Source: Phaeacidiphilus oryzae TH49
Lineage (GTDB): Bacteria > Actinomycetota > Actinomycetes > Streptomycetales > Streptomycetaceae
DNA: 64,000 nt
Reading direction: 5' to 3'
Assembly (NCBI RefSeq): GCF_000744815.1
Contig: NZ_JQMQ01000005.1
Coordinates: forward strand, 628,055-692,054
Shown here: positions 2,733 to 6,889 of the stretch, piece after piece
Numbering within the stretch: the first letter of the stretch is position 1
How the letters are laid out: every line of letters begins with the position of its first letter
Program-made: the position numbers and the translations under genes
The notes under the pieces: generated by a model
What the model saw: the letters and a program-made list of their open reading frames with translations, nothing else
Database searches by the model: none
Told to the model about the DNA's origin: nothing

Positions 2733-4466
2733 TCAGTGTGAGTCGCGGGAGACCGCCGAGCCGCTGCGGCCGACCAGGAAGTCGAGGTCGGCCCCGGTGT
2801 CCGCCTGGCGGACGTGGTCCACGTAGAGCCGCTCCCAGCCGCGGACCGGCGCCGCGTAGCCGGCCGCCGCCTCGGTGCTGGGCTTGCGGGCGGCCAGCTC
2901 CTCCGCCGGCAGGTCGACGTTCAACGTCCTTGCCGCTACGTCGAGTTCGATCCAGTCGCCGGTGCGGATCAGCGCCAGCGGGCCGCCGGCCGCCGCCTCC
3001 GGGGCGACGTGCAGCACCACCGTGCCGTAGGCCGTGCCGCTCATCCGGCCGTCGCAGATCCGCACCATGTCGCGGACGCCCTGGCGGAGGAGCTTGGGCG
3101 GCAGCGGCAGGTTGGACACCTCCGGCATGCCGGGGTAGCCCTTCGGTCCGCAGCCGCGCAGCACCAGCACCGTGTCCGCGTCCACGTCCAGGTCCGGGTC
3201 GTCGACCCGGGCGCGGAAGTCCTCGATGCTGTCGAAGACCATCGCCCGGCCGCGGTGGCTGAGCAGCTCCGGGGTGGCCGCGGCGGGCTTGATCACCGCG
3301 CCGTCCGGGGCCAGGTTGCCGCGCAGCACGGCGATCCCGGCGTCCGGCTGGAGCGGCCGCTCGCGCTCCCGGATCACCTCGGTGTCCCAGATCCGGGCGT
3401 CGTCCAGGTAGCCGGCGAGCGGGCGGCCGGTGACCGTCAGCGCCTCCGGGTCCAGCAGGTCGCGCACCTCGCGCAGCACGGCGTGCAGGCCGCCGGCCCG
3501 GTGGAGGTCCTCCATCAGATACCGGCCGGCCGGCTGAAGGTCCGTCAGCAGCGGTACGCCGGAGCCGATCCGGTCGAAGTCGTCCAGGGAGAGCGGTATG
3601 CCGAGGCGGCCGGCTATGGCCAGCAGGTGGACCACCGCGTTGGTGGAACCGCCGAGGGCGGCCAGCGCGACGATCGCGTTCCGGAACGAGCCCTCGGTGA
3701 GGAGCGTCGAGGGGCGGCGGTCCGCGCGGACCATCTCCACCGCGAGCCTGCCGGACTCGCGGGCCGCGCGCAGCAGCCGGCTGTCCGGGGCCGGGATCCC
3801 GGCGGTGCCGGGCAGGACGGTGCCGAGGGCCTCGGCGAGGAGGCCCATGGTGGAGGCGGTGCCCATGGTGTTGCAGTGCCCGCGGCTGCGAATCATCGCC
3901 GACTCGGAGGCGGTGAAGTCCTCGGCGCTCAGCTCGCCGCTGCGGACCTCCTCGCTGAGCCGCCAGACGTCCGTGCCGCAGCCCAGCGGGCGGCCGCGGA
4001 AGGTGCCGGTCAGCATCGGCCCGCCGGGCACCACCACCGAGGGGAGGTCCACCGAGGCGGCGGCCATCAGCAGCGAGGGGATGGTCTTGTCGCAGCCGCC
4101 GAGGAGCACCGCGCCGTCGACCGGATTGCCGCGCAGCATCTCCTCGGTGGACATCGCCGCCATGTTCCGCCAGAGCATCGCGGTGGGCTTGAGGAGCGTC
4201 TCGCCGAGCGAGACGACGGGGAGGTTCAGCGCGATGCCGCCGGCCTCGTGGACGCCGTCCCGGACCGCGGCGGCGACCTCGTCGAGATGCGAGTTGCAGG
4301 GCGTCAGATCCGAGGCGGTGTTGGCGATGGCGATCTGCGGACGGCCGGTGAAGGCGTCGTCCGGCAGTCCGCGCCGCATCCAGGCCCGGTGGATGTACCC
4401 GCTCCGCTCCTCGTCCCCGCTCGACCCCGCGTACCAGCTCTGGCTGCGCAATCCGTTCGTCGGCAT
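2733..4466 (-). CDS. IlvD/Edd family dehydratase, likely sugar-acid dehydratase
   Basis: A 577-residue Fe-S dehydratase of the IlvD/Edd family. The three conserved cysteines are in PCNSH (Cys57), GGCDKT (Cys125) and RGHCNTMGTAST (Cys198). The N-terminus SWYAG...RSGYIHRAWMRRG resembles L-arabinonate/D-xylonate-type dehydratases more than the branched-chain enzyme, so loss of water from an aldonic acid to give a 2-keto-3-deoxy acid is the likeliest reaction; exact substrate is inference. The C-terminal swivelling domain carries ICDGRMSGTAYGT. The start is ATG 4466. It is divergent from the leader ORF/TauD transcription unit, and no sugar transporter or aldolase lies next to it. Confidence 0.85.
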   Translation of the reverse strand: MPTNGLRSQSWYAGSSGDEERSGYIHRAWMRRGLPDDAFTGRPQIAIANTASDLTPCNSHLDEVAAAVRDGVHEAGGIALNLPVVSLGETLLKPTAMLWRNMAAMSTEEMLRGNPVDGAVLLGGCDKTIPSLLMAAASVDLPSVVVPGGPMLTGTFRGRPLGCGTDVWRLSEEVRSGELSAEDFTASESAMIRSRGHCNTMGTASTMGLLAEALGTVLPGTAGIPAPDSRLLRAARESGRLAVEMVRADRRPSTLLTEGSFRNAIVALAALGGSTNAVVHLLAIAGRLGIPLSLDDFDRIGSGVPLLTDLQPAGRYLMEDLHRAGGLHAVLREVRDLLDPEALTVTGRPLAGYLDDARIWDTEVIRERERPLQPDAGIAVLRGNLAPDGAVIKPAAATPELLSHRGRAMVFDSIEDFRARVDDPDLDVDADTVLVLRGCGPKGYPGMPEVSNLPLPPKLLRQGVRDMVRICDGRMSGTAYGTVVLHVAPEAAAGGPLALIRTGDWIELDVAARTLNVDLPAEELAARKPSTEAAAGYAAPVRGWERLYVDHVRQADTGADLDFLVGRSGSAVSRDSH

Positions 4467-4541
4467 ACGAGATCCCTACCACGGGCGGCGGACACCGCGG
4501 CAGGGGGCGGGCACGGCCGGTTCGGTCCGCATACGGCCGTC

Positions 4542-4571
4542 TTGACCAGGGCTCCGCGCGGGCCGCAGAAT
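4542..4571 (+). promoter_or_regulatory. Sigma-70-type promoter for leader ORF and TauD gene
   Basis: TTGACC at 4542-4547 and CAGAAT at 4566-4571, separated by 18 bases, form one of the best vegetative promoter matches in the window. Six bases after the -10 lies GTG 4578, so transcription is predicted to start at or next to that codon, giving a leaderless small ORF. The transcript would then run about 248 bases before the TauD start. Confidence 0.6.
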
Positions 4572-4577
4572 GCTGTC

Positions 4578-4658
4578 GTGATCAATCACCGCGTACCGAC
4601 CGCCGTCCGGGGCTGTTCCGTCCCGGAGCGCTGCGGGTGTACGCGCAGCGGCCTCTGA
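4578..4658 (+). CDS. Candidate leaderless Cys-containing leader peptide upstream of TauD
   Basis: A 26-codon ORF (GTG to TGA) encoding VINHRVPTAVRG followed by CSVPERCGCTRSGL, with Cys at 13, 19 and 21. It starts exactly where transcription from the TTGACC-18-CAGAAT promoter should begin, so it could be translated without a ribosome binding site. The last two Cys codons (4632 and 4638) lie in the 5' arm and loop of a hairpin (CGCTGCG 4629-4635 with CGCAGCG 4644-4650). Leaderless Cys-rich uORFs that attenuate sulfur genes are known in mycobacteria; here the gene downstream is a TauD-type oxygenase. The regulatory role is inferred, and a chance ORF cannot be excluded without transcript data. 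Confidence 0.45.
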   Translation: MINHRVPTAVRGCSVPERCGCTRSGL

Positions 4659-4723
4659 CGCGCTTCCCGCGATCGGCGCAGCCGCCGCCGAAACCCCTTG
4701 CACAGCAGCCGAGTCGACTCGGC
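4629..4723 (+). promoter_or_regulatory. Leader RNA hairpins before TauD
   Basis: Two inverted repeats lie in the TauD leader. The first (4629-4650) pairs CGCTGCG with CGCAGCG across an 8-base loop and covers the last Cys codons of the small ORF. The second is the perfect 16-base palindrome GCCGAGTCGACTCGGC (4708-4723), which can fold into a 6-bp stem. A ribosome stalled on the Cys codons would block the first. Neither has a U-tract, so termination would have to be Rho-dependent or act on translation. Confidence 0.35.
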
Positions 4724-4825
4724 GCCAGGCTCTCCCGCAGCCCCGCTCCACCGTCTCCGCGCGCTCCGCGCCCCCCAGTGGGGCCCTGTCCGCGACCGCC
4801 CGTTCCCCGTTCCCAGGAGGAGCCC

Positions 4826-5770
4826 ATGACCACCGCCCTGCCCGCACTGCCGGCGCCGCCTGCACTGCGTTCCTGGCGGATCCCCGACGACGGCCTGTAC
4901 GAGGGGGCGCGGGTGCTGCGCCGCCTGCCTGAGGGTCAACGCCCGCTTACGTACCAGTCGTTCGAGCTCACCCCGCTCGGTGCGGTGATCGGCGCGGAGA
5001 TCCGCGGTGTGGACCTCTCCCGGCCACTGCCGGAGCCGGTGCGCGCGGAGCTGGACCGGGCACTGCTGGAGTGGAAGGCGCTGTTCTTCCGCGGCCAGCA
5101 CCTGACCTCGGCCCAGCAGCGCGCCTTCGCACGCAACTGGGGCGAGTTGGAGACCAACCCGCTGCTGGCCGCGGGCGACAGCGCGGAGGTGGTGCGGTTC
5201 GACAAGTCCGCTTCGGCGGTGCCGACCTTCGAGAACGTCTGGCACGCCGACGTGACCTTCCGGGAGCGGCCGGCGCTGGGCGCGGTGCTCCAGCTGCGGG
5301 AGGTGCCGCCGCGCGGGGGCGACACCCTGTGGGCCGACATGGCCGCGGCCTACGACAACCTGCCGGAGCGGGTGCGGGAGCGGATCGACGGGGCCCGGGC
5401 GGTGCACGACTTCATCCCCGGCTTCGCCCGCTTCTACCCGCCCGAGCGGCTGGCCGCCCTCCAGGACCGCTTCCCGCCGGTGGAGCACCCCGTGGTACGG
5501 ACCCATCCGCGGACCGGGCGGCGGACGCTCTTCGTCAACGCCTCCTTCACCACCCACATCGTGGGAATGGCGAGCGCCGAGAGCGACCGGCTGCTGCGGC
5601 TGCTCTTCCAGCAGGCGCACGTCCCGGAGTTCCAGGTGCGGTTCAGCTGGCGGGCGGGCGACGTCGCGCTCTGGGACAACCGGGCCACCCAGCACTACGC
5701 GGTCGCGGACTACGGCACCCATCGGCGGGTCGCCGAGCGGGTGGCGATCGCCGGCGACCGCCCGTACTGA
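4826..5770 (+). CDS. TauD/TfdA family alpha-ketoglutarate-dependent dioxygenase
   Basis: A 314-residue Fe(II)/2-oxoglutarate dioxygenase, close to the usual length of taurine or alkylsulfate dioxygenases. The iron ligands are visible as WHADVTF (His140, Asp142) and the distal His in NRATQHYAVADY (His290). The Arg that binds 2-oxoglutarate lies just after it (HRRVAERV). TauD releases sulfite from taurine; relatives act on sulfate esters or aryloxyacetates, so the substrate is open. The frame is open from 4637, but ATG 4826 has a textbook AGGAGG five bases upstream (4815-4820). It is convergent with the Ku gene, 33 bases away. The upstream Cys-containing small ORF supports a role in sulfur supply. 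Confidence 0.87.
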   Translation: MTTALPALPAPPALRSWRIPDDGLYEGARVLRRLPEGQRPLTYQSFELTPLGAVIGAEIRGVDLSRPLPEPVRAELDRALLEWKALFFRGQHLTSAQQRAFARNWGELETNPLLAAGDSAEVVRFDKSASAVPTFENVWHADVTFRERPALGAVLQLREVPPRGGDTLWADMAAAYDNLPERVRERIDGARAVHDFIPGFARFYPPERLAALQDRFPPVEHPVVRTHPRTGRRTLFVNASFTTHIVGMASAESDRLLRLLFQQAHVPEFQVRFSWRAGDVALWDNRATQHYAVADYGTHRRVAERVAIAGDRPY

Positions 5771-5803: not shown

Positions 5804-6889
5804 TCAGGAAGCGCGGCGGCGCGAGGACTTGGCCGCCGTCTTCTTGGCGGCGGTCTTCTTCGCGGGGGACCTTCCGGTCGTGGTCTTCTTCGCGGCGGTC
5901 TTCTTGGCGGCGGGCTTCCCACTCGCGGACTTCCCACCCGCGGTCTTCTCACTCGCGGACTTCTCACCCGCGGTCTTCTTCGCCGGGGCCCGCTTCGTCC
6001 CGGTGGACTTCCGGGAGGAGGCCCTGGCCTCGGACGCCTTCTCCGCCGCGGACTTCCTGGCCGGCGCCTCCTTCGAGTCCGCCTCCCCCTCGCCGCCGCG
6101 GCCGCCCCTGGCCGCCTCGACGCTGCTGCGCAGGGCGTCCATCAGGTCGATCACCTGCGCCCCGCCGGCGCGCTCCGCGCCCTCCTCCTCCGTGGGCGGC
6201 TCCACCCCCTCCAGTTTGGCGGTGATCACCCGTTCGAGCGCCTCGGCGTACTCGTCGTACTGCTCGTCCAGATCGAAGCCCTCGGACAGGGTGTCCATCA
6301 GCGACCTGGCCATCTTCAGCTCCTGCGGCCGGACCTGGTCCTTGCCGCCGGGGGCGATCCCGGCCGGGTCGCGGATCTCGTCCGGCCACAGCATGGTCTG
6401 GAGCACCAGCAGGTCGCCCTGGACGCGCAGCACGGCCAGCGACTCCCGGGTCCGCAGGGTCACCTTGGCCACCGCCATCCGCCCCGACTCGACCAGCGCG
6501 TCCCGCAGCAGCTGGTACGGCTTGACCGGCGACTTCTCGGCCGGGCCGACGTAGTACGGGGTGGAGTAGCGCACCGGGTCGACCGACTCCGCGTCCACGA
6601 AGGCCAGCACGTCGATCACCTTGCGGCTGGGCACCGGGAGCTCGGCGAAGTCCTGGTCCTCGAGGACGACGGTCCGCCCGTCCGGGGACTCGTACCCCTT
6701 GGCGATCTCGCGGTACGGGACCTCCTTGCCCTCCTCCTCGCAGATGCGCTTCAGCCTGATCCGGGCGCCGTCCTTGCGGTGCACCTGGTGGAGGGCCGGG
6801 CCGGAGTGCTGCGAAGTGGCGGCGAAGAGCGAGACGGGGACGGTGACCAGCCCGAAGGTGATGGCCCCCGTCCAGGTGGCCTGCGGCAT
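5804..6889 (-). CDS. ku: Ku protein for non-homologous end joining, with basic tail
   Basis: A 361-residue bacterial Ku homologue that would bind DNA double-strand ends as a homodimer and recruit LigD. The Ku core spans about 1-258, beginning MPQATWTGAITFGLVTVPVSLF and including YYVGPAEKSPVKPYQLLRDAL. Residues 259-361 form a Lys/Ala/Ser/Thr-rich tail with repeated AAKKT- and KTAGEK-like units, as in the histone H1-like extensions of some actinobacterial Ku proteins. No ligD lies in the window. The next gene on the same strand ends 66 bases upstream of the Ku start. The low-complexity tail is encoded by GC-rich imperfect repeats. Confidence 0.95.
   Translation of the reverse strand: MPQATWTGAITFGLVTVPVSLFAATSQHSGPALHQVHRKDGARIRLKRICEEEGKEVPYREIAKGYESPDGRTVVLEDQDFAELPVPSRKVIDVLAFVDAESVDPVRYSTPYYVGPAEKSPVKPYQLLRDALVESGRMAVAKVTLRTRESLAVLRVQGDLLVLQTMLWPDEIRDPAGIAPGGKDQVRPQELKMARSLMDTLSEGFDLDEQYDEYAEALERVITAKLEGVEPPTEEEGAERAGGAQVIDLMDALRSSVEAARGGRGGEGEADSKEAPARKSAAEKASEARASSRKSTGTKRAPAKKTAGEKSASEKTAGGKSASGKPAAKKTAAKKTTTGRSPAKKTAAKKTAAKSSRRRAS

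Follow-up and report, generated by a model that had tools for sequence, protein, structure and literature searches.

A tauD-type gene in Phaeacidiphilus oryzae TH49 is preceded by a short open reading frame with three Cys codons. This raises the question of whether the frame encodes a real control peptide and, if it does, how such a peptide could act on tauD. The stretch of DNA that was analyzed, called the window, comprises 64,000 nucleotides. A sequence-only reading of it had proposed a leaderless upstream frame (uORF) working by cysteine-dependent attenuation of the mycobacterial type.

The tauD locus and its predicted promoter

The features of the locus, in window coordinates, are as follows.
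4542-4547, plus strand: -35 element TTGACC, the sole promoter-like match in 4300-5000; TTGAC occurs in 44 of 44 leaders
4566-4571, plus strand: -10 element CAGAAT, 18 nucleotides past TTGACC and 6 nucleotides before GTG
4578-4658, plus strand: uORF of 26 codons and a stop, VINHRVPTAVRGCSVPERCGCTRSGL, predicted to be leaderless; homologues at 47 loci
4623-4658, plus strand: conserved peptide end P-E-R-C-G-C-T-R-S-G-L-stop, defined by column counts in 44 leaders
4629-4650, plus strand: hairpin 4629-4638/4641-4650 containing Cys19 and Cys21, present in the sequence
4659-4814, plus strand: C-rich, G-poor spacer (C 50%, G 28%), a candidate Rho-loading region
4708-4723, no strand: perfect 16-nucleotide palindrome GCCGAGTCGACTCGGC, present in the sequence
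4815-4822, plus strand: Shine-Dalgarno sequence of tauD, AGGAGGAG
4826-5770, plus strand: tauD-type Fe(II)/2-oxoglutarate dioxygenase of 314 amino acids (Pfam TauD, 6e-68)

A base-by-base check of the window places the uORF between the GTG at 4578 and the TGA at 4656-4658, with Cys at codons 13 (TGT), 19 (TGC) and 21 (TGT). The distance from the stop to the ATG of tauD at 4826 is 167 nucleotides. The 26-codon frame, its three Cys codons and the position of tauD are as they had first been described. A dihydroxy-acid dehydratase-type gene (2733-4466, minus strand) is divergent from the leader and tauD. Convergent with tauD, on the minus strand at 5804-6889, is a gene, identified only by eye, for a Ku-type protein whose tail is long, repetitive and rich in Lys and Ala.

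One promoter-like match, TTGACC-18-CAGAAT, was found in 4300-5000, compared with a mean of 0 in 50 shuffles. TTGAC lies 35-37 nucleotides 5' of the uORF start codon in all 44 leaders that were compared, and the -10 hexamer is CACAAT or CAGAAT in 33 of them. The -10-like hexamer is separated from the start codon by 6 nucleotides in 17 leaders, by 7 in 26 and by 8 in one, while the spacer between the two promoter elements is 17 nucleotides in 22 leaders and 18 in 20 (42 of 44 together). This spacing is the geometry of a leaderless transcript, and the transcript start is predicted at the first codon of the uORF. The promoter originally proposed, with six bases between CAGAAT and GTG 4578, is borne out base by base, and its geometry is kept in the 44 leaders, the start itself being a prediction.

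The nearest solved relatives of the TauD protein are bacterial taurine dioxygenases (3pvj, 5e-70; 1gqw, 6e-68). It narrowly misses the cut-off of the NCBIfam taurine dioxygenase equivalog NF007104 (294 versus 313 bits). The segment GELHIHP of E. coli TauD aligns to WGELETNP in nearly all members of the clade to which the window TauD belongs. The first His of GELHIHP, a taurine contact in the E. coli enzyme, is changed, and the substrate of this clade may therefore be another sulfonate instead of taurine. The putative link to sulfur is supported by the solved taurine dioxygenase relatives and by orthologous tauD genes located in an ABC-transporter operon with an NF042934-like leader.

Conservation of the peptide and of the RNA

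Orthologues of the tauD product were taken from 298 family genomes and from a species-level genome collection. An ORF with the end motif was found upstream of 47 of approximately 70 Streptomyces-type orthologues. These 47 loci contain 44 distinct leaders, which were found by the end motif, so that the motif is also the search criterion. All 44 Streptomyces-type leaders are 25-26 codons long and end in P-x-R-x-G-C-x-R-[S/C]-G-x-stop. In the window numbering, P16, R18, G20, C21, R23 and G25 are invariant, and S24 is present in 43 of 44; V before P and E after C are each found in 38 of 44. Conservation is poor in the first half of the peptide. One Cys is present in 17 of the leaders, two in 20 and three in 7. 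What is under selection is the end of the peptide, which keeps a constant spacing to the stop, and not a Cys run. Over the last 14 codons of the 44 leaders, the pairwise identities at codon positions 1, 2 and 3 are 0.82, 0.79 and 0.54, which means that the residues are kept while the synonymous positions drift. The amino-acid identities across the three forward frames are 0.76, 0.42 and 0.49.

A profile of the 43 other leaders, with the window left out, recovers the window uORF with E=7e-7, and the next match among the six-frame segments of the window has a value of 0.55. The profile used for 296 family genomes was built from an alignment that contains the window peptide; it gave 22 matches below 1e-8, the next being no better than 7e-5, and all 22 strong matches precede tauD. 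One candidate for a leader away from tauD (genome G145, contig C32) was ruled out, since tauD is split there at the contig end. Searches by DNA pattern, which misses TAG stops, and by profile gave no convincing copy of the peptide ahead of a gene other than tauD. In NCBIfam, nothing up to E=10 corresponded to the window peptide or to two relatives, and no description of the motif was found in the literature searched. Rfam covariance models over 4400-4900 gave nothing near the gathering scores.

This comparison gives strong support to the idea that tauD has a leaderless leader ORF: across Streptomyces the reading frame, the place of the start, the length, Cys21 and the end motif are all kept. 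The combination of promoter, predicted leaderless start and peptide, all kept in 44 distinct leaders, is above chance. The uORF is almost certainly a real, tauD-specific leader (control) peptide of a kind missing from NCBIfam.

The homologous leaders retain the frame and Cys21, whereas the hairpin is without conservation. The hairpin holding two Cys codons and the second palindrome, both pointed out in the sequence-only reading, exist in the window, but the stability is at chance level and the palindrome core is not conserved. The z-value of hairpin folding in the 3' part of the uORF is -0.19 in the window (mean -0.31 over the 44 leaders), and that of the whole leader is 0.18 against shuffles. 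No excess of RNA stability over shuffles was found for the 3' part of the uORF, the region after the stop, the junction or the whole leader, and none of the other 43 leaders contains the core of the palindrome 4708-4723. RNA hairpins were rejected as the working element because of their shuffle-level stability and lack of conservation. The palindrome GCCGAGTCGACTCGGC is a possible regulator site. A search of both strands of 4300-5000 for an intrinsic terminator (a hairpin with a U run) found nothing that resembles one. Masking of the Cys codons raises the predicted accessibility of the tauD ribosome binding site in the window by 0.12. Over 41 leaders this effect is like that of shuffles (mean 0.007 versus 0.005, p=0.29), and general masking of the site by the uORF was rejected for this reason.

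The end of the leader has an unusual composition. The Cys codon is TGT in 40 of 78 cases, compared with 77 of 538 in nearby genes (p=3e-12), and the stop is TAG or TAA in 35 of 44 leaders against 31 of 208 (p=1e-16). Of the 23 leaders whose last residue is Arg, 17 encode it by CGA, a codon that makes up 3.2% of Arg codons (p=6e-21), and the +4 base after the stop is C in 42 of 44 leaders against 81 of 173 (p=4e-10). All these statistics count related leaders as independent. Both leader subgroups contain CGA-TAG and CTC-TAG. The rare CGA, the TAG/TAA stops and the +4 C suggest a leader end that would be slow to translate and to terminate. The window copy ends in CTC TGA, with neither CGA nor TAG/TAA, and has only the +4 C in common. 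The 44 spacers between leader and tauD average 44% C and 29% G, compared with 38% C and 33% G in control intergenic regions (C minus G, p=3e-8). Such C-rich, G-poor spacers are as expected for Rho loading, for which they are candidates; the composition falls short of proof.

Other leaders preceding tauD

Thirteen Streptomyces orthologues have a different uORF, ...CAPRG.SFLRRRGRVGSPPA.C., the start codon of which lies in most of them about 7 nucleotides past a TACGGT-like -10 sequence. This second family of tauD leaders ends in (L)RRRGR[VL]GSPPA and is Cys-bearing in Streptomyces (loci L012, L014, L016, L021, L025, L029, L035, L036, L049, L052, L058, L065 and L110) and Cys-free in other genera of Actinomycetota (loci L073-L075, L077-L081 and L083). 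The copies ending in RRGR[LV]GSPP that were read and that have no Cys come from Amycolatopsis, Qaidamihabitans and Saccharomonospora (Pseudonocardiaceae) and from Nocardiopsis and Streptomonospora (Nocardiopsidaceae). One Streptomyces example of the second family was compared with NCBIfam and had no match. A search for RRGR[LV]GSPP over the order gave real matches at tauD; six other matches were read in their context and rejected, none being leader-like. A tauD paralogue, 50% identical, is present in the genome of the window (G000 C5:516213-517118, equal to L148 5205-6134), and neither the GC.RSG nor the RRGR leader motif was found upstream of the tauD paralogue (locus L002).

In another clade, tauD shares an operon (ssu-type) with genes for an ABC permease, an NMT1-type binding protein and an ATPase. 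In related Streptomyces this operon is preceded by a leaderless uORF, ...HIDLCRVSSASC, which scores 23.5 bits against NCBIfam NF042934 'putative leader peptide', below the cut-off of 27. The leaderless uORF VTVDRFLVECLHIDLCRVSSASC, likewise a sub-threshold match to NF042934, is found before the ABC-transporter-tauD operon at L142 (position 3915), and also at L143, L144, L145, L034 and L037.

On a tree of 90 TauD sequences, the four leader-label groups need 7 changes, compared with a shuffled mean of 38.8; the label 'H' was given to operon-type genes before all leaders had been read, and at L015, L017, L031, L050 and L055 what was seen was the preceding transporter gene. The difference indicates that leader types follow clades. 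The window TauD groups with the operon-type clade, yet it has the GC.RSG leader, which is also found in two basal Streptomyces. The GC.RSG leader may therefore be ancestral in the genus Streptomyces. One gene is thus preceded in different clades by different leaders that bear Cys or a motif, which speaks for control by a translated leader as the function that is conserved.

Possible mechanism and comparison with known systems

The reading that we prefer, at roughly even confidence, is that of a ribosome-pausing attenuator acting on tauD in cis through the invariant Cys codon and the conserved end of the nascent peptide. Its observed basis is the promoter and start geometry, the selection on the peptide, the exclusive linkage to tauD, the unusual end codons and stop, and the C-rich spacer; we infer in addition that the uORF is translated, that the ribosome pauses, that cysteine is the signal and that attenuation works through Rho. 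Transcription would start at the first codon of the uORF, as promoter spacing in the 44 leaders implies, and a ribosome would load at once. Near the end it would read P-x-R-x-G-C-x-R-S-G-x-stop at a speed that depends on the invariant Cys codon, the slowing probably being aided by the conserved nascent chain, the rare codons and the weak termination site. Under a shortage of cysteine (sulfur), this ribosome would pause and tauD would be expressed. With sulfur in good supply, the ribosome would leave and tauD would be attenuated, for which the loading of Rho on the C-rich spacer would be the simplest means. The leader peptide probably senses the supply of sulfur or cysteine via a pausing ribosome. 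Against a pausing attenuator are the lack of a terminator in 4300-5000, the lack of general masking of the ribosome binding site, and the CTC TGA end of the window copy. Of the mechanism first suggested, with hairpins and Cys codons, the Cys part is retained in the invariant Cys21, but the conserved object is the peptide motif and not the hairpins.

The selection on a peptide motif with one invariant Cys points to pausing linked to the nascent peptide or to termination. The 17 leaders with a single Cys make a purely tRNA-based sensor a weak proposition, and the second leader family, without Cys in five genera, indicates that tauD leaders need not count cysteine. It is possible, although we consider it less likely than the preferred reading, that the P-x-R-x-G-C-x-R-S-G chain is an arrest peptide which halts the ribosome by contacting the exit tunnel, with the charging of tRNA-Cys being irrelevant. 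As part of this explanation, what is sensed would be a small molecule, such as a sulfonate, sulfide or cysteine itself, or else slow termination. It would account for the seven residues that are invariant or nearly so while their synonymous positions vary freely, and for their constant spacing to the stop, for the rare CGA, TAG/TAA and +4 C, and for the RRGR[LV]GSPP family, which is Cys-free in Pseudonocardiaceae and Nocardiopsidaceae. However, it does not call for a Cys that is invariant in 44 of 44 leaders with TGT favored, and the libraries and literature searched yielded no arrest peptide with this sequence. A more general suggestion, which is tentative but deserves some weight, is a new actinobacterial arrest-peptide system for organosulfur use. 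Its two tauD leaders, ending in GCxRSGx-stop or RRGR[LV]GSPP, would stall near the stop and sense the sulfur status via the nascent chain, not by Cys runs.

A plain attenuator of the mycobacterial polycysteine type, in which the number of Cys codons alone matters and the stalled ribosome frees the tauD ribosome binding site, appears improbable. The leaderless start, the Cys near the end, the sulfur-type gene downstream and the accessibility gain of 0.12 in the window agree with it, but there is no Cys run, six other residues are invariant or nearly so, 17 of 44 leaders have one Cys, and the accessibility effect in the 41 leaders is that of shuffles. It is very improbable that the product is a trans-acting small protein, for example one binding a metal or thiol, that is merely co-transcribed with tauD: selection at the amino-acid level would fit, but all strong copies stand directly before tauD, the first half is poorly conserved, and related tauD clades have unrelated leaders. 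A chance ORF can practically be dismissed, since the leave-one-out match (E=7e-7) and the conservation in 44 leaders contradict it, even though short ORFs are common in GC-rich intergenic DNA and the folding does not exceed that of shuffles.

The preferred pausing attenuator and its alternatives concern what has grown from a hunch about a single genome into a family of leader peptides that is defined by an exact motif, by its promoter geometry and by its linkage to one gene. It suggests that in Actinobacteria leaderless uORFs can regulate through the sequence of the peptide as well as by counting amino-acid codons. The natural leader variants are a clean set for separating the Cys codon, the nascent chain and slow termination as the sensor.

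The closest comparison, and a precedent for the preferred reading, is with the mycobacterial attenuators that are leaderless polycysteine short ORFs (Canestrari et al. 2020, as described in PMC9031893). They share with the tauD leader, whose leaderless start is predicted, a leaderless 5' uORF, Cys near its end and a sulfur-related gene downstream. They differ from the window leader, in which the Cys residues are not contiguous (C-x-C at 19/21 plus C13), and from the tauD leaders generally, where a peptide motif surrounds one invariant Cys and no conserved structure masking the ribosome binding site was found. The proposed attenuation of mycobacterial type is consistent with the invariant Cys21, but not with the absence of a Cys run and the single Cys in 17 of 44 leaders. 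The NCBIfam families NF042934 (cis_reg_atten) and NF042936 (Ms4527A Cys-rich leader) are likewise short with Cys near the end, although the window peptide and the two relatives match neither. Leaders predicted for cys operons of Mycobacterium, Propionibacterium and Bifidobacterium, which the authors suggest may depend on Rho (PMC1262725), are a further precedent and also have Cys near the stop and no terminator; they differ in having Cys runs and cys/cbs genes downstream instead of tauD. The leaderless leader peptides leuL, trpL, ilvL, thrL and metL of S. lividans (PMC8079986) are, similarly to the tauD leader, short and located before metabolic genes, several of them without a clear terminator. 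Their action is put down to codons for the amino acid under regulation, and none of the eight is described there as cysteine-dependent or as preceding tauD. Since a Cys run was tested for and is absent, the tauD leader is kept out of the polycysteine class, and by its sequence features it is filed as a putative variant of leaderless leader-peptide attenuation.
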